Of a DNA stretch of 64,000 bases, positions 2,516 to 11,646 are shown one piece after another. This DNA comes from Neorhizobium vignae (GTDB lineage Bacteria > Pseudomonadota > Alphaproteobacteria > Rhizobiales > Rhizobiaceae): positions 186,001-250,000 of the forward strand of contig NZ_JNNU01000004.1 in the NCBI RefSeq assembly GCF_000732195.1. Reading direction: 5' to 3'. A program made the translations under genes and the position numbers. The notes below the pieces were generated by a model, which searched no databases, was not told the origin of the DNA, and worked only from the letters and a program-made list of their open reading frames with translations. How positions within the stretch are numbered: the first letter of the stretch is position 1; every line of letters starts with the position of its first letter.

Positions 2516-3769
2516 ATGACAATCGTGCCGAATTTTCAAACCGTCGTCGATCCTCAAAAACTCGAAAAGCTGGCGGAAGTCGCCATCAAGGTGGGCTTGC
2601 GCCTCGAGAAGGGACAGGATCTGGTGATCACGGCACCGCTCGCCGCCCTGCCGCTCGTGCGGCTCCTCACGAAATACGCGTATATCGCCGGCGCCGGCAT
2701 CGTCTCGACCTTCTATTCCGACGAAGAGACGACGCTCGCGCGCTATGAATACGCGCCCGATGCAAGCTTCGACAAGGCGTCGGACTGGCTCTACGAGGGC
2801 ATGGCCAAGGCCTATGCCAACGGCGCCGCGCGGCTTGCCATCTCCGGCGACAACCCGATGATGCTCTCCGGCCAGGACCCGTCCAAGGTGGCGCGCGCCA
2901 ACAAGGCCAATTCCATGGCCTACAAGCCGGCGCTCGAAAAGATCGCCAATTTCGACATCAACTGGAACATCGTGTCCTATCCCAACCCCTCCTGGGCGCG
3001 GCAGGTCTTCCCGGATGTCCCGGAAGACGTCGCAGTCGGCAAGCTGGCGGACGCGATCTTCGCCGCCTCGCGCGTCGATCTCGCCGATCCGATCGCGGCC
3101 TGGGCCGAACATAACGGCAATCTCAAGAAGCGTTCGACATGGCTCAATGGCGAGCGCTTTTCCGCGCTCCACTTCACCGGCCCGGGCACCGATCTGACGG
3201 TCGGGCTCGCCGACGGCCACGAATGGCATGGCGGCGCCTCGACAGCCAAGAACGGCATTACCTGCAACCCGAACATCCCGACCGAAGAGGTCTTCACCAC
3301 GCCGCATGCGCTGAAGGTGGAAGGCCATGTCTCCAGCACCAAGCCGCTGTCGCACCAGGGCACGCTGATCGACAATATCCAGGTGAAGTTCGAAGGCGGC
3401 CGGATCGTCGAGGCCAAGGCTTCGAAAGGCGAGGAAGTGCTGAACAAGGTTCTGGATACGGACGAAGGCGCCTGCCGGCTCGGCGAAGTGGCACTGGTGC
3501 CGCATTCCTCGCCGATCTCCAAAAGCGGCATCCTGTTCTACAACACCCTGTTCGACGAAAACGCCTCCTGCCACATCGCGCTTGGTCAGTGCTATTCGAA
3601 ATGCTTCCTCGACGGTGCATCCTTGAGCCAGGAGCAGATCAAGGCCCAGGGCGGCAATTCGAGCCTGATCCACATCGACTGGATGATCGGTTCCGACAAG
3701 GTCGACATCGACGGCGTCCGCGCCGACGGCTCGAAGGTGCCGGTGATGCGCAAGGGTGAGTGGGCCTGA
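2516..3769 (+). CDS. Aminopeptidase, M29 (AmpS/thermophilic) family
   Basis: 417 residues, matching the family's usual 410-420. M29 enzymes are cytoplasmic metalloaminopeptidases with two metals. Ligand segments seen are NIPTEEVFTTPH near residue 255, GEVALVPHSSPISKSGILFYNTLFDE (in part) around 325-350, HIALGQCY near 358 and SSLIHIDWMIGSD near 383. The start is ATG 2516, preceded by AGGTGAGGT; the same frame is open upstream to 1646 but that part lies opposite a signal-peptide gene and is low-quality sequence. It ends 3 bp before the convergent oxidoreductase stop. Confidence 0.92.
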   Translation: MTIVPNFQTVVDPQKLEKLAEVAIKVGLRLEKGQDLVITAPLAALPLVRLLTKYAYIAGAGIVSTFYSDEETTLARYEYAPDASFDKASDWLYEGMAKAYANGAARLAISGDNPMMLSGQDPSKVARANKANSMAYKPALEKIANFDINWNIVSYPNPSWARQVFPDVPEDVAVGKLADAIFAASRVDLADPIAAWAEHNGNLKKRSTWLNGERFSALHFTGPGTDLTVGLADGHEWHGGASTAKNGITCNPNIPTEEVFTTPHALKVEGHVSSTKPLSHQGTLIDNIQVKFEGGRIVEAKASKGEEVLNKVLDTDEGACRLGEVALVPHSSPISKSGILFYNTLFDENASCHIALGQCYSKCFLDGASLSQEQIKAQGGNSSLIHIDWMIGSDKVDIDGVRADGSKVPVMRKGEWA

Positions 3770-3772
3770 TCC

Positions 3773-4366
3773 TCACCTTAACTTCTGGAGCGTGGCCTTC
3801 ACACGCTCCAGATGCCGCCGGCGCTTGTCATCCGTGGCGCGGTCCATGTCGTGCAGCGCCAGCATGCGGAATTCGGCTTTTCTGTTGCAGAAGACAGCGA
3901 TGCCGCGCTTGAGCTGTCGGCGCACGGGATCGCCCATGTAGAACTTCACCACCCACCAGGGCGAACCTGTGGTGGTGAAGACCCAGAAATGGCGAATGTT
4001 GGTGAGCAGCGGGACGATCCGTCCGCCCGCCTTGTCGTGGCGGAAGGCGACGCCTGGCGCGAACACCCGATCGAAGAAACCCTTCAGCACCGCCGGCAGA
4101 TTGAACCACCATTGCGGGAAGACGAACACCAGCGCCTCGGCCTTCTGCAGCCGCATCACGAGATCCGCGACCCCCGACGTGTCATAGGGCACTTCGAAAT
4201 AACCGCGCCGCTCCTTTTCCGTCAGCCGCGGATCAAAATTCTCGGCATGAAGATCGAGGAGGTCGACGCTGTGACCCTGCCCTTCCAGTGTCTCGCGAAC
4301 GGTGCGAGCGACCGAATGCGCGAAACTCTCCGGCAGCGGATGGGCAAGCACCAGGAGCAAATGCAT
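3773..4366 (-). CDS. NAD(P)H-dependent flavodoxin-fold oxidoreductase (quinone reductase type)
   Basis: 197 residues of the flavodoxin_2 / NAD(P)H:quinone oxidoreductase family (MdaB/KefF-like), which binds FMN or FAD and reduces quinones by two electrons in the cytosol. Seen: N-terminal LLVLAHPLPESFAHSV flavin-phosphate loop, FVFPQWWFNLPAVLKGFFDRVF at about residues 78-99, and the TTGSPWWV segment around 130. The ATG at 4366 shares its A with the TGA of xseA (TGATG), so translation is coupled to xseA. Confidence 0.88.
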   Translation of the reverse strand: MHLLLVLAHPLPESFAHSVARTVRETLEGQGHSVDLLDLHAENFDPRLTEKERRGYFEVPYDTSGVADLVMRLQKAEALVFVFPQWWFNLPAVLKGFFDRVFAPGVAFRHDKAGGRIVPLLTNIRHFWVFTTTGSPWWVVKFYMGDPVRRQLKRGIAVFCNRKAEFRMLALHDMDRATDDKRRRHLERVKATLQKLR

Positions 4367-5973
4367 CAGAAGAGCGTGCCCTGTTTTGGCGCGCCTCCCG
4401 GCGGCTCCGGTTTCGCCGGTCGCTTCCTGGGCTGGGATGACACAGCGGACGGAACAGCAGGATCGCCACCCTCGCCCGTCATCGCCGCAATCCGGCCGTC
4501 GGCGAATTCCACGGAAATCGCCTGCCCTTCGCCAATGCCGGCGGCGCGCGTCAGCGGCCGGTCGTCCTCGCCGCGTACCACGGCAAAGCCGCGCTTCAGC
4601 ACGTTCTTGTAGGAGAGCGATTGCAGAACGCGATCCTGCGCGGTGATTGCCGCGCGGCTGCGGATAAGCGTGTGCGAGATCGCCGTATCCGCATGGCGGG
4701 CCATCGACGCGAGATGCTGGCGCTCGCGCTGCAACTGGCCGAGCAATCTTGCGGGCAGCGCCGAAAGCGAGACGCCGGCCCTGGCGACACGATTGTTCTC
4801 CTTCAGCAATTGCCGCTCCAGGCAACGGTCGCTGCGCGTCAGACGGTCGGCCAGCAATTGCCGCTGCTGGACAAGGCGGTTGGTCAGCAGTTCAAGACGC
4901 AGTCCCGACGATGCCCGCTCGAAACTGCGGCGCTTGACCACCGTCGTGCGCTCCAGCCCGCGGCCGAGACCAGCCGCCGCCTCGTCGAAACGACGGCGCG
5001 GCAAAGCCAGCAACTGGTCGATGGAGGGCAGCGCGCGGACCAGCGCCCGCACCGACTGGCGGCGCAGGTCCATCTGCCGACTGGCGGCACCCCGCAGGCG
5101 GGCCGTCAGATTGGCGACCTGCGCTTCCATGTCCGCCTTGACCGGCACCGCCATTTCGGCGGCACCCGTCGGGGTTGGCGCGCGGACATCGGCGGCGTGG
5201 TCGATCAGCGTCCAGTCGGTCTCGTGGCCGACAGCCGAGATCAGCGGGATTTGGCTGTCCGCCGCGGCGCGCACTACCGCCTCGTCGTTGAAGCTCCAGA
5301 GGTCTTCAAGACTGCCGCCACCACGCGCGACGATCAGGACGTCCGGCCGCTTGATCGGGCCGCCCGGCGCCATCGCGTTGAAGCCACGGATCGCATTGGC
5401 GACCTCATCGCCCGATCCTTCACCCTGCACCTTGACCGGCCAGACGATGACATGCACCGGAAAACGGTCGGCGATACGATGCAGGATATCCCTGATGACG
5501 GCGCCGGTCGGCGAGGTCACGACGCCTATCACTTGCGGCAGGAAGGGAAGAGGTCGCTTGCGGCTCTGGTCGAACAGGCCCTCGCCGCCTAGCCGCCTCC
5601 GACGTTCTTCGAGCAGCGCCATCAGCGCGCCCGCACCTGCCGGTTCCAGGTTCTCGATGACGATCTGATATTTCGAGGAGCCCGGGAAGGTGGTGATCTT
5701 GCCCGTCGCTATCACTTCCATGCCCTCTTCCGGGCGGAATTTGATGCGCGGGAAGGTGCCCTTCCAGATCACGGCGTCGATCCGGGCGCGATCGTCCTTC
5801 AGCGAGAAATAGGCGTGGCCTGAGGAATGCTGGCCGCGATAACCGGAGATTTCGCCACGTACGCGCACATGGTCGAACGCGTTCTCTACCGTGCGCTTGA
5901 TCGAGCCGGACAGTTCCGACACCGAAAACTCGGTGAGGTTCGTGGGCGAATCGTTGTCGAGCAAACTGGTCAT
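4366..5973 (-). CDS. xseA: Exodeoxyribonuclease VII large subunit
   Basis: 535 residues. XseA with XseB forms exonuclease VII, which degrades single-stranded DNA. N-terminal OB-fold: [18 protein letters not shown] and [21 protein letters not shown]. The catalytic core follows with [35 protein letters not shown], and [18 protein letters not shown], then the long coiled-coil (about residues 270-430) and a Pro-rich basic tail typical of rhizobial forms. xseB is not adjacent. The flavodoxin-fold gene is coupled to its stop codon. Confidence 0.97.
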
Positions 5974-6275
5974 CCTTCTCTTCTAAAGGAAGAGCGCGGC
6001 GATTTCACCAGTACCAGACAGCGGAAACGGGGATGACGTCGCCTGCAAACCTGCCGTTTTGCCGGGCTTTTCCAGCGATGCGTGAGCGCCTGTCCGCTCG
6101 CTCCTGCGCGCCCAAGTATTTGACGCTGCATCTTTTCTTTTGCCGGACACGCCACATTTCCTTCTCTGGAGAGGCAGGAAACTTCCGGCACGCGCCTTTT
6201 TAAGGCCTCGTATTTTCCCCGCCGGAGAGAGGAGGGCGACAATGAAGGGCAGCGATATTCAAGGAGATCTCGCCC
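5974..6275. other. Intergenic region between xseA and the spike-base-like gene
   Basis: About 300 bp that diverges to xseA on the left and the small phage-like gene on the right. It must hold both promoters, but I see no convincing -35/-10 pair; a TTGACG at about 6119 has no good partner. Near the right end there are two strong Shine-Dalgarno sequences, GGAGGG before an ATG at 6242 and AAGGAG before the ATG at 6276. Confidence 0.5.
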
Positions 6276-6539
6276 ATGCCAGACCGTTTCGCCAATACTC
6301 AAGCCTCGCTCTCCGGCCCCGCCGCCTCCGGATTTGCGATCACGCCCGGCGACAGCGCCGACCTGCCGGAGACGACGCGCGCGCTCTATGTGGGCACCGG
6401 GGGCCATCTGTCCGTCCGCATGCTGTCCGGAGAAACACTGACGCTTTCGAACGTACCTGCCGGCGGCGTGCTTCCGTTGCGGGTGACCCGCGTATTTGCG
6501 ACCGGCACGACGGCGGTGGCGATCACCGGGCTCGTCTAA
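6276..6539 (+). CDS. GTA-type head spike base protein-like (RCAP_Rcc01079 family)
   Basis: 87 residues. The pattern SGFAITPGDSADLPETTRAL, then YVGTGGHLSVRMLSG, NVPAGGVLPLRVTRV and an ATGTTAVAITGLV end matches what I know of the small spike-base protein of the Rhodobacter capsulatus gene transfer agent. In that particle the protein sits on the capsid and helps it attach to capsule polysaccharide. The start ATG has AAGGAG 9 nt upstream. No GTA capsid, portal or tail gene is in the window, so this looks like an orphan piece. Assignment is from memory of the family and should be confirmed by search. Confidence 0.7.
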   Translation: MPDRFANTQASLSGPAASGFAITPGDSADLPETTRALYVGTGGHLSVRMLSGETLTLSNVPAGGVLPLRVTRVFATGTTAVAITGLV

Positions 6540-6557
6540 GGGGAACGGTGGTCAGCA

Positions 6558-6833
6558 ATGCGGCGTGAACCCTTGCTGCTGCGCTTCGAGGACAGGCAGC
6601 AAGCGATGTCCGTGCTCGGCGAGATCGGCATTAAGTTCGATGCCGTCTCCGGTGACGGCATCATCCGCAAGCCGACGGGCGAAACGGCCGAATTCGAAGG
6701 CGAGGTCGTCGCCTTCACCTGCCCGGTTTCGGGCTACCATGTCCGGCTGGTCTGGCGAGGCGAAGAACTGCCTTGTTCATTGACGCCATATCTTGTGAAT
6801 GCCGGCGCTTCAGGCAAGGACCAGAGCCATTGA
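6558..6833 (+). CDS. Small protein of unknown function, beside the spike-base-like gene
   Basis: 91 residues starting 18 bp after the spike-base-like stop, same strand, so probably co-transcribed. It reads as a small beta-rich domain (LLLRFEDRQQAMSVLGEIGI, then EVVAFTCPVSGYHVRLVWRG) with two Cys. Proteins of this size and look are common among phage structural accessory genes, but I do not recognise the family and assign no function. Confidence 0.6.
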   Translation: MRREPLLLRFEDRQQAMSVLGEIGIKFDAVSGDGIIRKPTGETAEFEGEVVAFTCPVSGYHVRLVWRGEELPCSLTPYLVNAGASGKDQSH

Positions 6834-6916
6834 ACATGGCCAAGCCGCACCGAATCAGGTCGTATCACAGCCATCGCGTGGCGCATTAGTGCCTGCCACG
6901 CTGGAACGAAAGCATT

Positions 6917-6935
6917 TATTAGCAAGTCGCTAATA
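6917..6935. promoter_or_regulatory. Inverted repeat TATTAGC-N5-GCTAATA, candidate operator
   Basis: Perfect 7-bp arms with a 5-bp spacer, 38 bp upstream of the GTG start of the small membrane protein. The size and place fit a dimeric repressor site; no regulator gene is adjacent. Confidence 0.4.
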
Positions 6936-6973
6936 GGCTCAGTTTCACTGAAGGCCGATAAGGAGATATCCGC

Positions 6974-7204
6974 GTGCTTTTCCTGACCGCTGTATCGATA
7001 GGCGTTTGCGTCGGCATGATGCGGTCGGTGTTCTCGACCGCTTTCATCGCTGTCGTGATCACTGCGACATTCGCGCTTGCGACCGCCGTATCGCCTGGGC
7101 CTGCGTCCTATTTCAATCTTCTGATCGCCGTTCTCGGTTATAATGCCGGCTTGATTGCGTTCCTTGCAGGTCTTTTCGCCCTGCAGAGCCGCCAGGTGGC
7201 CTAA
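6974..7204 (+). CDS. Small integral membrane protein, unknown function
   Basis: 76 residues from a GTG start with AAGGAG 8 nt upstream, which is the main reason to believe it. Two hydrophobic spans are visible: about residues 1-32 (probably one long or two short helices) and 46-68, ending in the polar tail QSRQVA. A CVGMMRS stretch sits between. It ends 15 bp before the convergent GT-C-type gene. No family recognised. Confidence 0.55.
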   Translation: MLFLTAVSIGVCVGMMRSVFSTAFIAVVITATFALATAVSPGPASYFNLLIAVLGYNAGLIAFLAGLFALQSRQVA

Positions 7205-7219
7205 GGGCACTTCCCGCCA

Positions 7220-9073
7220 TCAATTCCTGTCCGGCAGTACCTTGTAAAGGCGGAAGCCGCTCTTGCTCGGTTGTCCGAACGGCTGGAGATAATCCGGCAC
7301 CTGACCGCGAGCGAGGTTGGCATAGAGCCCGTCCGGCTTGCGCCGGATCAGGGCATCGGTCTGCGGATCCGTCTTGCAAAAGGCGAGCGCAGTCACGTCG
7401 GCCCCCCTCAGGAAGGCTTTTGCCTCGCTCGGCTGGGCCATCCCGATATAAAGTTCGGTCAGCATGCCCTTCTGGTTGCGATGATAGGGCGCCGACAGCA
7501 CCCGATGAGGGGTGAAGCGCAAGATGTCGGCGCCGCTGTTGGAGGGTGCGACTATGACACCGGTAGGCAATGCGTTCAACGCCGTCATATCCGCCGGATC
7601 GCCGCACTCCCCGACTTCGCCGTTGGAAATGCCCGCCCTCGAAAGCGTCCGCATGTCGGCCGCCTGTTTCCAGCCATGTACCGCAAGGACGCCGCCCAAA
7701 GCCCAGACGACGGGAACGGACATTAGCACCGCGCTGACATAGGCAAAGGCGGCACTGGGATTTCCGGGGTCGGCCGCGGAGGCGCGTCGCAGGTCGCTGA
7801 TCAGCAGTGACAACGGCAGGATGGCCAGCATGTTGGAAAAGAAGGCGCCGCGCACCTGCAGCAGCGCGATCCCCCATGACGCCCCGATCAGCGCGAGAAG
7901 CACGAGATGCAGTTCGGTCTCTTCGCGCCTCAGGCTGCGGACAAGGCAGACGACGATCGCAAAAAGCCCGACGGCGTAGAACCCGCCCACCATTTCCGGT
8001 TCGGTCTGGGCCTCGGCCAGAAACGAGCGCGCCTCCGTCACGCCGTTCAACCAAAGCTCGACCAGCAGCGGGTCGAGCGTGCTCAACGGATCGGCAAGGC
8101 ATTGCGGCGCGATGATGCGGGCCGTCAAAAGGATGAGCCCGCCGGTAATGCCGGCCAGGCCGATACGGACGAGGCGGGAGGGCTGTTTCGGCAGGCTTGC
8201 GAGGAGGAAGAGTGCCGCTCCTCCCAGCGCGGAAAGGGCATAGAAACCGAGCGAAAAGTTGTCGCAGGTGACGACCGCATAGGCGCGCGGCGGTATCGTC
8301 AGGAAAAAGACCGCCGAGACGGAGAGGGCCAGCGACAGGCCGAAAGCGCGGGCCGGCCGGGAGAACGGTTGGCCATGCCAGACCCACTGAAGCGCGACGC
8401 AGACGCAGACGACGGCAACAAAAGGCGTCGTTTCGACACCGATCGCCAGTGCCAGCGCGCAGGCGATGGCAGCGACGACGTAGCTCGATGCCCGCCGTTG
8501 CGGATCGACCAGCATGGCAGCGATCCACATCACAAGCATGAGCTGGACGTTGTGATGGTCGATGGACCCGGGCTTGAAGCGGACGCAGCCGAGGACGAAG
8601 AGCGCTCCAAGGCCGAGCGCGATATGCATGGCCGCGACACCGGCCAAGCGGCGGACAGCCAGGCCAAGCGGCAGGAGCAGAAGCGGCACCAGAAGGAGAG
8701 GCCAGATCGTGACGACGACGGCCTCGGCCTTGTCCGGGGTGAGGAAGAGCGAAAACAGCCGGATCAGCAGCGCGATCGGCAGATCGATCAACCGAGACCA
8801 ATGCATCAAGGTGCCGCCCTCGAGGCCGAGCCGGTACTGGGTGAGATCGAACCAGTTCTGGCCGCCGAGAAAATCCCTAACCTCGACGAGCCGCATGACG
8901 TCGTCGTTGTCGGCCCCGACGTAATCGGTCGCACCGGGAAGAAAAAACGAGAGAGCCGCGATGGCGACGATGACCGTGTAAAGGGCAACCGCCGGCAGAA
9001 GCTGCGACAAGAGCGGCACGGCAGCCTGGTCTGTCGCCCTCGATAAGGATCTGTCTGCCATGTTTTCCGTCAT
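7220..9073 (-). CDS. Polytopic membrane protein, probable GT-C-fold glycosyltransferase
   Basis: About 617 residues with 11-13 hydrophobic spans. After the first span comes a long extracytoplasmic loop, GADNDDVMRLVEVRDFL, then DLTQYRLGLEGGTLMHWSRL. Acidic residues in the first outer loop are the catalytic hallmark of GT-C enzymes such as STT3/ArnT, which use polyprenyl-phosphate sugars. A GSIDHHNVQL motif follows near residue 190. I start at ATG 9073; ATG 9061 is as likely, and the frame is open to a TTG at 9133. It is divergent from the GT2 gene across about 125 bp, and the pair fits a three-part sugar-transfer system. Not a named family to me. Confidence 0.75.
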   Translation of the reverse strand: MTENMADRSLSRATDQAAVPLLSQLLPAVALYTVIVAIAALSFFLPGATDYVGADNDDVMRLVEVRDFLGGQNWFDLTQYRLGLEGGTLMHWSRLIDLPIALLIRLFSLFLTPDKAEAVVVTIWPLLLVPLLLLPLGLAVRRLAGVAAMHIALGLGALFVLGCVRFKPGSIDHHNVQLMLVMWIAAMLVDPQRRASSYVVAAIACALALAIGVETTPFVAVVCVCVALQWVWHGQPFSRPARAFGLSLALSVSAVFFLTIPPRAYAVVTCDNFSLGFYALSALGGAALFLLASLPKQPSRLVRIGLAGITGGLILLTARIIAPQCLADPLSTLDPLLVELWLNGVTEARSFLAEAQTEPEMVGGFYAVGLFAIVVCLVRSLRREETELHLVLLALIGASWGIALLQVRGAFFSNMLAILPLSLLISDLRRASAADPGNPSAAFAYVSAVLMSVPVVWALGGVLAVHGWKQAADMRTLSRAGISNGEVGECGDPADMTALNALPTGVIVAPSNSGADILRFTPHRVLSAPYHRNQKGMLTELYIGMAQPSEAKAFLRGADVTALAFCKTDPQTDALIRRKPDGLYANLARGQVPDYLQPFGQPSKSGFRLYKVLPDRN

Positions 9074-9198
9074 CTTGGTGCGGACTTTTCGCCTGTTTCG
9101 AGGGTCGAGGAAACCTAGCCTTAACCTTCCCAAGAAATAGTAAAGCCTGCGGCACGGGAGACTCCCGCGTTCGGTTTTCAGTGTATCGAGTGAACAAC

Positions 9199-10206
9199 AT
9201 GACCGACGCCCTGACCGGCCATTTCGACATCGCCATCCTGCTGCCCTGTTACAACGAAGCGATGACCATCGCCGGCGTGGTGCGCGGCTTCCGGGAGGCG
9301 CTGCCGGGTGCCCGGATCTTTGTCTACGACAACAATTCCACGGATGGCACAGCCCTCCAGGCCATGCTGGCGGGTGCCCTGGTGATGCGCGAGCGCCGGC
9401 AGGGCAAGGGCCATGTGGTGCGCCGCATGTTCGCCGACATCGAGGCGGACGTCTACATCATGGCCGACGGCGACGGCACCTATGCTCCCCACGATGCGGA
9501 AGAACTGGTCCGCACCCTGCTCACCGAGCGCGCCGACATGGTGGTCGGCACCCGCCGCGGGGTGCATGCGGATGCGGGGCGGCAAGGTCATGCGGCCGGC
9601 AACCGGCTGTTCAACTTCCTCTACCGGACGATGTTCGCTTCCGACTTCACCGACATCTTCTCCGGTTACCGCGCCTTCTCGCGCCGTTTCGTCAAGAGCT
9701 TTCCGGCCGTCTCCGGCGGCTTCGAGATCGAGACCGAGATGTCGGTGCATGCCTCGCTGCTGAAGCTGCCGGTCTGCGAGATCGAACTCGACTACGGAAG
9801 GCGCCCCGAAGGCTCGCATTCCAAGCTCTCGACCTTCAAGGACGGCGCCAGGATCCTTTGGATGTTCGCCATGCTGATGAAGGAGACGCGGCCGTTCGCC
9901 TTTTTCGGGCTGATCAGCGGCGCCTTCATGGCGGCAAGCCTGGTCTTCATGGCCCCCGTCCTCGTCGCCTATTTCCAGACCGGCCTCGTGGAGCGTATGC
10001 CCACCTGGGTCTTCTCGCTGGTGCTGATGCTGGTGTCGCTCTTAATCTTCACCGCCGGGCTGATCCTCGATTCCGTGTCCCGCGCCCGCGCCGAACAGCT
10101 CCGCATCCACTATATGAGCCTGCCGGCCAGCGCCCATGTGGCCGGTCCCGCGCAGGCGCCCGCCAAGCCCGCCAAGCCCGAACGGCGCAGGACCAAAGCG
10201 GCATGA
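9199..10206 (+). CDS. GT2 family glycosyltransferase, polyprenol-phosphate sugar synthase-like
   Basis: 335 residues. GT-A fold: ILLPCYNEAMTIAGVV, FVYDNNSTDGT and MADGDGTYAPHDAE, where the Asp-x-Asp binds the nucleotide sugar's metal. Two C-terminal membrane helices (about residues 230-290) resemble DPM1/GtrB/ArnC proteins, which load a sugar onto dolichyl or undecaprenyl phosphate at the inner face of the membrane. I chose ATG 9199 (GAGTG upstream) over GTG 9181. Its TGA overlaps the next gene's ATG (ATGA), so at least these two are coupled. Confidence 0.88.
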   Translation: MTDALTGHFDIAILLPCYNEAMTIAGVVRGFREALPGARIFVYDNNSTDGTALQAMLAGALVMRERRQGKGHVVRRMFADIEADVYIMADGDGTYAPHDAEELVRTLLTERADMVVGTRRGVHADAGRQGHAAGNRLFNFLYRTMFASDFTDIFSGYRAFSRRFVKSFPAVSGGFEIETEMSVHASLLKLPVCEIELDYGRRPEGSHSKLSTFKDGARILWMFAMLMKETRPFAFFGLISGAFMAASLVFMAPVLVAYFQTGLVERMPTWVFSLVLMLVSLLIFTAGLILDSVSRARAEQLRIHYMSLPASAHVAGPAQAPAKPAKPERRRTKAA

Positions 10207-10901
10207 ACCGGGAAACCACCAATCGCATCCGCTTTGTCATCGAGGACCTGCTGCCGCCGATCCTGCGGGATTCGCCGCTTTTCCTCTGGCTCGCCAAGCG
10301 CGTCTGGGGCGACCATATCAGCCACCTCGCCCGCTTTCGCGAGCGGGCGCCTTTCCTGACCGCGGAGGAATATGCGGACCTCTACCGCAACCATCCGCGC
10401 GTCCATGAAGGCACGGATAATTCGGCGGCCTGCATCCGGCGCATCAATTCCATGATCACCGGGACAAGCGTCTGCGACGTCGGTTGCGGCACGGGCGCGC
10501 TGCTCACCCATATCCGCGCCGCCCATCCCGAACTCAAGCGTCTCGTCGGCGTCGATTTCGTCGTCGAAGATGCGGCCGCCATCGAAGGCGTCGAATACGT
10601 GGCGGCCAAGATCGAAGACCTGCCGTTTGCCGACGGCGAATTCGACACGGTGGTCTGCACCCATGTGATCGAGCATGTGCTGGAATATCAGAAGGCGATT
10701 GCGGAACTGCGGAGGATCGCGAAAAGACGGCTGATCATCGTCGTGCCGCGCGAACGGGAATCCCGCTACACGTTCAACCCGCATTTCAACTTCTTCGCCT
10801 ACCCGCATTCCTTCCTGCGCGCCGCGCATCCGGTGCCGGACGTCTATGTCTGCGAGGATATCGGCCGCGACATCTTCTACAGCGAAGACCGGCCGGGCTG
10901 A
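10203..10901 (+). CDS. Class I SAM-dependent methyltransferase
   Basis: 232 residues, overlapping the GT2 gene by 4 bp. Motif I CDVGCGTGALLTHI is at about residues 92-105, the acidic end of beta-2 is VGVDFV, and motif IV is DTVVCTHVIEHVLE near 158. This is the Methyltransf_11 pattern. Lying between a polyprenol-sugar synthase and two small flippase-like proteins, it may methylate a sugar or lipid intermediate; that is inference from position only. Confidence 0.85.
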   Translation: MNRETTNRIRFVIEDLLPPILRDSPLFLWLAKRVWGDHISHLARFRERAPFLTAEEYADLYRNHPRVHEGTDNSAACIRRINSMITGTSVCDVGCGTGALLTHIRAAHPELKRLVGVDFVVEDAAAIEGVEYVAAKIEDLPFADGEFDTVVCTHVIEHVLEYQKAIAELRRIAKRRLIIVVPRERESRYTFNPHFNFFAYPHSFLRAAHPVPDVYVCEDIGRDIFYSEDRPG

Positions 10902-10910
10902 GGATATCGC

Positions 10911-11273
10911 ATGTTCGCCTCGCTTTCCCCCATCACCTGGCTCGGGCTTCTCGGAACGCCCCTGCTGATCGCCATGGGGCAGGTTCTGTTCAAGATGACC
11001 AGCTCCACCGCCGGAGACTTCTCGCTGCGCGGGCTCGCGGCGCTCGCCGCCAATCCGGTGCTGATCGCGGCGCTGGCGCTTTACGGATTCGGCACGATCG
11101 TCTGGATCTATGTGCTGAAATCCGTGCCGCTGACGCTCGCCTATTCCTTCATGGGGCTGACGTTCTGCTTCGTGCCGCTGCTGGCGCAACTGTTCTTCGG
11201 CGAGCCGCTGACGTTTCGATATGCGCTCGGGACCGCGCTGATCTTTGCCGGTCTGCTGGCGATCAACGGCTGA
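10911..11273 (+). CDS. EmrE/EamA-like small four-helix membrane protein, possible lipid-sugar flippase
   Basis: 120 residues with four hydrophobic helices (about 8-28, 38-60, 68-88, 95-118), the size and layout of SMR/ArnE-ArnF proteins. SMR-like pairs flip polyprenyl-phosphate-linked sugars in lipid A modification. It sits 9 bp after the methyltransferase. The position next to a GtrA-like gene suggests a role in the same transport step, not drug efflux. Confidence 0.75.
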   Translation: MFASLSPITWLGLLGTPLLIAMGQVLFKMTSSTAGDFSLRGLAALAANPVLIAALALYGFGTIVWIYVLKSVPLTLAYSFMGLTFCFVPLLAQLFFGEPLTFRYALGTALIFAGLLAING

Positions 11274-11280
11274 CGGCGCG

Positions 11281-11646
11281 ATGACCAGCCGCGCCCGGTT
11301 TGCCATTCTCCTCGCGCTGCTGGTCTTCATCGATGCGCTGTTGCTGCAGCTGCTGACCACGGCGACCGAGGCCGGCACGCTGATAGACCGGCTGATATCG
11401 CTCGGCGCGGGCCTCGTTGCCGCGCCGATCCTGCACAGGATCGTTCCCGCGGCCCGGGGCCAAGTACGCCAGCCGGGTTTCTGGCCGCTCGTTGCAGTCG
11501 GCCTTGCCCTCAATTACGGGATTTTTGCAGTATTGGCTTCGCGCGCGCCGCACGTGCAGCCGCTCGTGCATCTCGGCTTTTCCTGGGCCTGCACACTCAT
11601 CTTCGGTGGCTACGGCCTATATCGCATCCGCCGCTGGCAGAACTAG
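11281..11646 (+). CDS. GtrA-like small membrane protein
   Basis: 121 residues, four hydrophobic helices, C-terminal segment [13 protein letters not shown] resembling the end of GtrA proteins, which are thought to flip undecaprenyl-phosphate glucose. The start is ATG 11281, 7 bp after the preceding stop; a longer frame from GTG 11245 overlaps the EmrE-like gene and lacks a ribosome site. Its TAG overlaps the TAG of the convergent oxidoreductase in the palindrome CTAG. Confidence 0.7.

Follow-up and report, generated by a model that had tools for sequence, protein, structure and literature searches.

What do five close-packed genes of Neorhizobium vignae do, and why should two of them look like flippases? 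The genes lie in a window of 64,000 nucleotides, the whole stretch of DNA that was analysed, in the order GT-C (divergent), GT2, methyltransferase (MTase), SMR-like protein and GtrA slot (Table 1). The host is a soil bacterium, kin of the root-nodule bacteria. In the gtr framework the components are a polyprenyl-phosphate-sugar synthase, a small membrane protein proposed as the flippase and a GT-C enzyme (PMC11127046). The first-pass annotation read the set as a gtr-like system of three components, enlarged by a methyltransferase and an EmrE-like protein, and the analysis bears this out: the GT-C fold is found and the genes are conserved together. All five genes claimed at 7220-11646 are present at about those positions, and the proposed ATGA coupling, an overlap of the MTase start (10203) with the GT2 stop (10206), is confirmed.

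Table 1. Genes of the cassette and their positions in the window.
Feature	Coordinates	Strand	Length	Basis
GT-C membrane glycosyltransferase P0001, AglB/STT3/DPY19 fold (predicted)	7220..9073	-	617 aa	AlphaFold2 model and fold search
GT2 P0002, probable polyprenyl-phosphate sugar synthase, AglJ/DPMS-like	9199..10206	+	335 aa	PF00535
Class I SAM-dependent methyltransferase (MTase) P0003	10203..10901	+	232 aa	PF08241
SMR/EamA-type small membrane protein P0004, ArnE/ArnF-like, putative flippase	10911..11273	+	120 aa	EamA
Derived GtrA P0005 in the GtrA slot	11281..11646	+	121 aa	Profile of relatives' GtrA

The gene set probably attaches a sugar to a cell-surface target. The reading that we favour, with fair confidence, is a periplasmic three-component glycosylation system to which a methylation-and-flippase module has been added. 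To judge from its family, the GT2 would work at the cytoplasmic face of the membrane and charge polyprenyl phosphate with a sugar drawn from a nucleotide sugar; the MTase would methylate the lipid-linked sugar in the cytoplasm; the SMR/ArnE-like protein would carry the methylated polyprenyl-phosphate sugar over the inner membrane instead of GtrA; and the GT-C, with the AglB/STT3 fold of its model, would transfer the sugar to an acceptor in the periplasm. The derived GtrA downstream of the SMR gene may be a weakly constrained remnant or an accessory. As for membership of the three-component type, the GT2 would belong by family (PF00535, AglJ/DPMS similarity) and the GT-C by its predicted fold, and a small flippase-like protein is present in all 52 genus loci with a GT2 (37 with GtrA, 15 with SMR and derived GtrA).

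The GT-C fold, which the first-pass annotation had set as a check on the 7220 protein, is found in the AlphaFold2 model of P0001 (pLDDT 92.7, pTM 0.91), so that annotation's refuting outcome, a missing GT-C fold, did not occur. Against AglB (3wak) the model gives a VIA Z of 24.0 (563 residues, 3.7 Å), and the fold search ranks AglB (24.0) before STT3 (21.9), DPY19 (20.9) and ArnT (16.0); all 19 rows with Z of at least 18.8 are AglB, STT3/OST or DPY19 chains. P0001 has no Pfam match, the Pfam STT3 model is matched by 0/60 GT-C members at E 0.1, and PDB sequence searches with the GT-C, single and by profile (up to E 10), were fruitless. The 60 members form an alignment, A1, of the window's sequence and 59 of the 80 listed relatives' GT-C sequences.

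The acceptor motif of oligosaccharyltransferases (OST) is WWDYG. WWD is absent from P0001, and the C-terminal domain of the members conserves other residues (PYHRN). Assignment as an oligosaccharyltransferase (GT66) was rejected: the predicted fold is AglB-like, but there is neither a Pfam STT3 match nor WWD. From sequence alone, OST-like catalytic candidates may be proposed whose order is as expected and whose spacing fits Rx6D: D57; R165, D172 and H174; E347; and R408. In A1, D57 is conserved in 58/60, D172 in 60/60, H174 in 57/60, E347 in 59/60 and R408 in 60/60, and position 165 is R in 30/60 and K in 14/60. The published OST set is D (EL1), Rx6DxD/E/H (EL2), E (EL5) and R (EL6) (PMC6801728). 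The GT-C occurs in 54/57 genomes of the genus, and the cassette points to an AglB-fold transferase family found in 29/61 genomes of the family sample, one of which (G055) was omitted, its match lying at a contig end.

Does this enzyme glycosylate proteins? The GT-Cs of the gtr and Arn systems have polysaccharide or lipid A as acceptors, which argues against it, as do the missing WWD, the different C-terminal residues and the lack of any STT3 match. The top fold matches and the AglJ-like GT2 agree with an AglB/DPY19-type protein glycosyltransferase that places a methylated monosaccharide onto periplasmic or secreted proteins; so does the Haloferax Agl pathway, where AglJ, AglB and the methyltransferase AglP are used with dolichol phosphate. 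On balance this alternative is rather unlikely, and the periplasmic gtr-type system, its acceptor left general, is preferred.

Turning to the cytoplasmic steps, P0002 is a probable polyprenyl-phosphate sugar synthase by its sequence: it matches PF00535 (E 4.4e-15), reaches 204.1 bits with NCBIfam AglJ (TIGR04182), under the equivalog cut-off of 325, and has GpgS and DPMS as PDB sequence matches. Two C-terminal hydrophobic stretches were judged by eye. The GT2 is at the GT-C locus in 52/54 genus loci, a count that excludes five distant GT-C paralogue loci without GT2 (L058-L062). P0003 matches PF08241 (E 3.1e-17), and the alignment of 59 MTases has a mean column identity of 79%.

What, then, is methylated? 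The substrate is not readable from the Foldseek fold matches or PDB sequences: the model (pLDDT 74.7) gives 889 Foldseek matches at E <= 0.001, with phospholipid, sugar and natural-product MTases intermingled. The top match, a phosphatidylethanolamine N-methyltransferase in a near-tie with many others, leans towards polyprenyl phosphate, a phospholipid head group or the acceptor as the target of an MTase merely co-regulated with the GT2. So does the separation of MTase from GT2 in 10 of the 80 named loci, Ruegeria accounting for six. We consider this unlikely in view of the ATGA overlap, of the GT2 sharing the locus in 70/80 and the genome in 79/80 (9 of the remaining 10 genomes have it at another site), and of the co-switching of MTase and putative flippase gene described below. 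The named loci come from an MTase scan that required an exact match to either of two peptide patterns and retained 80 of 99; being chosen via the MTase, they are uninformative on module frequency. Methylation of the lipid-linked sugar stays the preferred reading.

How constant is the arrangement? The MTase occurs in 15/57 genus genomes and the SMR gene in the same 15, both between GT2 and GtrA slot. The joint conservation set as a further check is found: the window's five-gene order recurs in 15/54 genus loci and in 27/70 named loci with a GT2, 11 genomes being shared, which is beyond what chance would give. The gap from GT2 to the Gfo/Idh gene measures 368-662 nt in genus loci without MTase and 1440-1461 nt in 15/15 with it. 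Among genus loci with a GT2, GtrA with its motif is present in 37/37 that are MTase-free, and SMR with motif-less GtrA in 15/15 that bear the MTase. In these locus counts the motif pattern overlooked L056, whose GtrA has the Asn; L049 was scored as GtrA-less, yet the GtrA profile matches it at E 2e-45; and L204 was counted as without MTase and SMR, both of which come after the GT-C at that locus instead of after the GT2. Of the named loci with a GT2, 39/70, L035 (= L207) included, read GT2-MTase-SMR with no GtrA found downstream, that is, within ~2.7 kb after the GT2; on some named contigs little sequence is left beyond the module.

MTase and SMR are a non-obligatory pair. An intact GtrA follows GT2-MTase at L165 and L239, where SMR is absent; L232 has the MTase alone; five further MTase loci lie away from GT2, with SMR absent (L224, L231, L235, L236) or elsewhere; L053 and L054 are GT2-SMR, with neither MTase nor GtrA; and at L199 SMR stands beside a GtrA that retains its motif. 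A methylated sugar may therefore also be handled by GtrA, and an unmethylated one by SMR. An order-wide MTase search, with at most 11 candidates scored per genome, found it in 3/249 genomes.

The two flippase-like proteins are of unequal standing. P0004 passes Pfam EamA marginally (28.6 bits against a gathering score of 28.2). Its best-scoring models are NCBIfam ArnE (42.1 bits, cut-off 92; E 8e-11) and ArnF (41.4 bits, cut-off 99; E 2e-10), Qac/EmrE models are weak, and a profile search from it matched EmrE PDB chains at E 0.006. ArnE/ArnF are described as C55-P-sugar transporters (PMC7389260).

P0005 descends, by sequence comparison, from GtrA as a derived form in the same slot. The label "GtrA-like" finds no direct support in Pfam GtrA (PF04138, 11.4 bits against a gathering score of 26.1, E 0.37) and holds with a profile of 23 relatives' GtrA, none from MTase-bearing loci (E 2.6e-8). 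An ordinary GtrA was rejected on that Pfam E value and the loss of conserved residues. The longer TTG start at 11245 in the list of open reading frames is unnecessary. With a GtrA profile retrained on module-locus proteins, which underlies locus and residue counts alike, the conserved Asn is present in 54/54 GtrA from loci without SMR vs 1/44 with SMR, and the conserved Arg in 50/54 vs 2/44; Thr-Phe residues are lost too. The Arg missing in 42/44 was aligned by us with R95 of Listeria GtcA. In Listeria GtcA, R95 to Ala abolished function and N69A still worked, so loss of the Asn alone says little. Pairwise Nei-Gojobori estimates of pN/pS (36, 8 and 3 pairs, the 8 comparison pairs picked by low GT2 divergence) put classical GtrA at 0.103 and GT2, MTase and SMR at 0.082-0.087, against 0.396 for the derived GtrA in the clade of the window; a second module clade of 3 genomes offers a weak contrast (0.182 vs 0.112 for SMR). 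What occupies the GtrA slot is therefore a GtrA of derived form and under weak constraint.

The first-pass annotation's two flippase-like proteins are present, but they are not best taken for two ordinary working flippases: with GtrA residues lost and no GtrA found downstream in 39/70 named loci, the pair looks like a replacement in progress, in which GtrA seems to be giving way to the SMR-like gene.

Did the parts of the module move together? On a tree of flanking genes (49 loci) there are 4 forced changes, and MTase, SMR and derived GtrA switch together in 4/4; taken alone, the 4 within-genus switches give p 0.125. On a GT2 tree of 124 rows, MTase and SMR change in the same direction in 7.9/9 independent pairs and in opposite directions in 0 (p 0.008), and SMR and classical GtrA change oppositely in 6.3/10 and alike in none (p about 0.03). 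This tree leaves out 10 rows, L049 included, because of stops or short matches, and L204 entered it as without MTase and SMR. Although module-bearing, L131 and L134 are closest to module-free strains in their flanks, GT-C and GT2. The resident part of the cassette consists of GT-C, GT2 and GtrA; L138 counts against this, for there the flanking genes lie closest to strains that lack the module and the GT2 to strains that have it. MTase, SMR and derived GtrA appear to be exchanged en bloc for a plain GtrA among related strains, with GT-C and GT2 mostly staying put, and strains may therefore alternate between a methylated sugar and a plain one.

Could SMR and derived GtrA form a two-subunit flippase, ArnE/ArnF-style, for the methylated donor? 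The derived GtrA is there in 15/15 module-bearing genus loci and in all four switches, its frame is open with pN/pS below 1 in both clades (0.40 and 0.18), and SMR-associated GtrA share a Gly at the classical Arg position (40/44) and keep a C-terminal Arg (41/44). The idea is doubtful all the same: no GtrA was found downstream in those 39 named loci, and the Arg aligned with the essential R95 is gone in 42/44. Transport by the SMR protein instead of GtrA is preferred. Improbable too is a minimal archaeal-style AglJ/AglB-like protein glycosylation in Alphaproteobacteria, in which a single sugar, methylated on a polyprenyl monophosphate carrier, would be flipped by an SMR protein that has displaced GtrA and be placed on proteins by an AglB-fold enzyme of a new GT family, the methyl-flippase block being swapped among strains as an on/off switch for surface methylation. 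A weak similarity to Qac/EmrE models speaks for the SMR protein as an exporter of drugs or cations, a mere bystander in the operon; this is scarcely credible, for ArnE/ArnF score highest, and in tens of loci its gene sits where GtrA is lost or stripped of conserved residues.

The favoured reading, a gtr-type system with an exchangeable module, has flippase types repeatedly swapped while the neighbouring GT2 and GT-C stay the same and the MTase is the linked change. The repeated swap provides related strains as ready-made pairs, and exchanging a single block between the two would allow tests of flippase identity and of substrate specificity. A decayed usual carrier next to another membrane carrier likewise makes the passage of sugars across the membrane testable. 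A literature search recognised no paper on this cassette; most subscription journals were outside its scope, so this is no proof of novelty.

Set beside known systems, the GtrA-slot protein is of the same descent as the GtcA/GtrA C55-P-sugar flippases; unlike them, it has lost conserved residues, one of them aligned with the residue essential in Listeria GtcA. With Arn lipid A modification (ArnC, ArnE/ArnF, ArnT) the cassette shares an SMR-type putative flippase for a modified polyprenyl-phosphate sugar. The Arn system has a deformylase where the methyltransferase stands here, the GT-C model resembles AglB (Z 24.0) more than ArnT (Z 16.0), and the SMR protein scores below the ArnE/ArnF cut-offs. 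Haloferax Agl (AglJ, AglP, AglR, AglB) offers an AglJ-family GT2, an MTase, a proposed flippase and the AglB fold, the likeness of MTase to AglP and of SMR protein to AglR being one of proposed role; unlike there, the GT2 is under the AglJ cut-off, the cassette has no further sugar transferases and the OST acceptor motif is absent. Shigella and Salmonella gtr O-antigen glucosylation (GtrA, GtrB and a serotype-specific GT-C) differs in that here the GT-C is divergently transcribed and has the AglB/STT3 fold in its model, an MTase and an SMR protein have joined the set, and GtrA is either missing or of derived form; the three component types are the same, and the cassette is probably a new form of the three-component gtr type.

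The cassette is a variation on the gtr-like system, and its five genes lie close-packed with that of the GT-C protein divergent, just as the first-pass annotation had described.

Features of the cassette and its surroundings in the window
Feature	Position	Strand	Remarks
xseA-like gene and Gfo/Idh-like gene (convergent)			bracket the cassette; both named by eye from translations
Small hydrophobic protein	6974-7204	+	convergent with GT-C
GT-C (P0001)	7220-9073	-	divergent from the four-gene series
GT2	9199-10206	+	PF00535; AglJ/DPMS-like (family scans)
Methyltransferase (MTase)	10203-10901	+	class I Methyltransf_11; start overlaps GT2 stop as ATGA
SMR-like (SMR)	10911-11273	+	barely above EamA cut-off; ArnE and ArnF best-scoring, both below cut-offs
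Small membrane protein (P0005)	11281-11646	+	no significant family in direct scan

The family scan assigned no Pfam family to P0001. The prediction that it is a GT-C enzyme is borne out by a confident model built from 60 sequences (pLDDT 92.7, pTM 0.91) and by fold searches, with a subtype that was unexpected: Foldseek places archaeal AglB at the top (E 3e-12), followed by STT3, with PglB and DPY19 lower, and VIA gives Z 24.0 for AglB (563 residues, 3.7 A), 21.9 for STT3, 20.9 for DPY19, 17.1 for PglB and 16.0 for ArnT. The catalytic residues of PglB (PMC6801728) are D56, R147, D154, D156, E319 and R375, with a His replacing D156 in AglB and Rx6DNE in STT3; P0001 bears D57, R165-x6-D172-H-H174, E347 and R408. 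Over the 60 sequences, D172 and R408 are kept in all, E347 in 59, D57 in 58 and H174 in 57, residue 165 is Arg in 30 and Lys in 14, and Cys 490 and Cys 566 are invariant. The protein was not filed as an OST: WWDYG, the motif of OSTs, is not present in the P0001 sequence, and none of the 60 members matches Pfam STT3 at E 0.1.

GT-C is found in 54 of the 57 genus genomes and in 29/61 genomes of the family sample. GT2 stands alongside it at 52 of the 54 genus loci and at 23 of the 26 other family loci fetched by GT-C (L164 and L165, fetched by MTase instead, are excluded). One family member with a very small genome (G044, locus L039, one contig of 1,504,659 bases) retains GT-C, GT2 and classical GtrA, which suggests that this core is not easily lost. 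In one genus genome lacking MTase (G347, locus L163), the GT-C match lies in three pieces, one containing stops. Five distant second GT-C paralogues (L058-L062, 25-30% identity), from several family genomes, have no adjoining GT2. The small hydrophobic protein is kept beside GT-C in many relatives, whether the MTase module is present or absent; 57 loci match it at E 1e-3, a count that takes in the window and named duplicates.

Of the 57 genus genomes, 15 have MTase, and SMR is found in precisely those 15; in the order sample, 3 of 249 genomes have MTase, including the one that the window comes from. In genus loci without the pair, the gap between GT2 and Gfo/Idh measures 368-662 nt and is occupied by a GtrA gene; in those with it, 1440-1461 nt. 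A profile of 23 classical GtrA proteins, none out of an MTase locus, matches P0005 at E 2.6e-8, and P0005 is therefore read as a GtrA of derived type that occupies the GtrA slot.

A scan of genome contigs with an MTase alignment returned 99 relatives; 80 of them were retained, in Neorhizobium, Rhizobium, Sinorhizobium/Ensifer, Shinella, Mesorhizobium, Ruegeria, Hyphomonas, Hellea, Sneathiella and others. In these loci, chosen by MTase, SMR accompanies MTase in 74/80, and GT2 and GT-C are each present in 70; where the locus lacks them, GT2 lies elsewhere in 9 of 10 genomes and GT-C in 7 of 10. Among the 70 with GT2, 39 read GT2-MTase-SMR with GtrA not found, and 27 have a motif-less GtrA (11 of these being genus-set genomes again). 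Single loci hold SMR with intact GtrA (L199), MTase and an intact GtrA in the absence of SMR (L239), MTase alone (L232) or a different gene order (L204). In L235, the gene after MTase (6001-6732) encodes none of the usual partners but another GT-C-like membrane protein (6874-8070; GT87 type by eye). In L236 (Sulfitobacter algicola, 3351-6693), LpxD-like, acyl carrier protein-like and FabF-like genes, named by eye, precede MTase, a neighbourhood reminiscent of a lipid A acyl-chain cluster.

How does the module come and go? In a tree built on the flanking Gfo/Idh protein, covering 49 genus loci of which 14 carry the module, starred branches force four changes of module state, and SMR and GtrA type switch along with the module in all four (p 0.125; only 4 pairs). 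The GT2 tree of 124 rows has 17 changes for MTase, 19 for SMR and 15 for classical GtrA; when independent pairs are taken on starred branches, the changes in MTase and SMR go in the same direction in 7.9 of 9 and oppositely in 0 (p 0.008), and SMR and classical GtrA oppositely in 6.3 of 10 and in the same direction in 0 (p about 0.03). Loci L131 and L134 are closest to module-free strains in flanks, GT-C and GT2; L138 is closest to them in its flanks, and to module strains in GT2 (84 vs 80%), with GT-C undecided at 58 vs 58%. From this co-switching and these affinities, it looks as though MTase, SMR and derived GtrA trade places with GtrA as one block, and as though GT2 and GT-C stayed put in at least two of these swaps. 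The pattern has its exceptions: besides L199 and L239, L165 is arranged like the latter, L035 has MTase-SMR without GtrA, and L053 and L054 have SMR without MTase or GtrA.

Another point concerns GtrA itself. Among the GtrA proteins found, the 54 without SMR all keep the Asn, Glu and Tyr, and 50 keep the Arg; in the 44 with SMR (32 distinct), Asn is kept in 1, Glu in 10, Arg in 2 and Tyr in 1. For Listeria GtcA, whose residues were matched to GtrA columns by a motif alignment made in this analysis, PMC7389260 counts N69, F74, F91 and R95 among the conserved residues, and reports that R95A and N132A each abolish glycosylation of both polymers and that N69A has no effect. Across 36 pairs from the 9 genomes of the window's clade, derived GtrA has a pN/pS of 0.396, against 0.083 for GT2, 0.082 for MTase, 0.087 for SMR and 0.169 for GT-C; for classical GtrA, 8 close pairs give 0.103. 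The contrast is weaker in a second clade that carries the module (3 pairs from 3 genomes), where derived GtrA stands at 0.182 and GT2, MTase, SMR and GT-C at 0.043, 0.048, 0.112 and 0.113, respectively. Judged by these lower ratios in its partners and in classical GtrA, derived GtrA is less constrained, though not necessarily dead. The first-pass reading is partly supported: the gtr-like cassette with an added methyltransferase and EmrE-like protein stands, and the two flippase-like proteins are probably not two ordinary flippases.

In the three-component framework (PMC11127046), polyprenyl phosphate is loaded by a GT2, flipping falls to a small membrane protein, and a GT-C carries out the transfer. 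Here GT2 would load the carrier likewise, the lipid-linked sugar would probably then be methylated, and a changed flippase would act before transfer by GT-C. The most useful feature is this natural, apparently repeated replacement of one putative flippase family by another. The Agl pathway of Haloferax (PMC3871713) offers a parallel in the roles of its parts: AglJ attaches the first sugar to dolichol phosphate, AglB acts as the transferase, and the pathway also has a methyltransferase, AglP, and a protein, AglR, that is proposed to be a flippase or to assist one.
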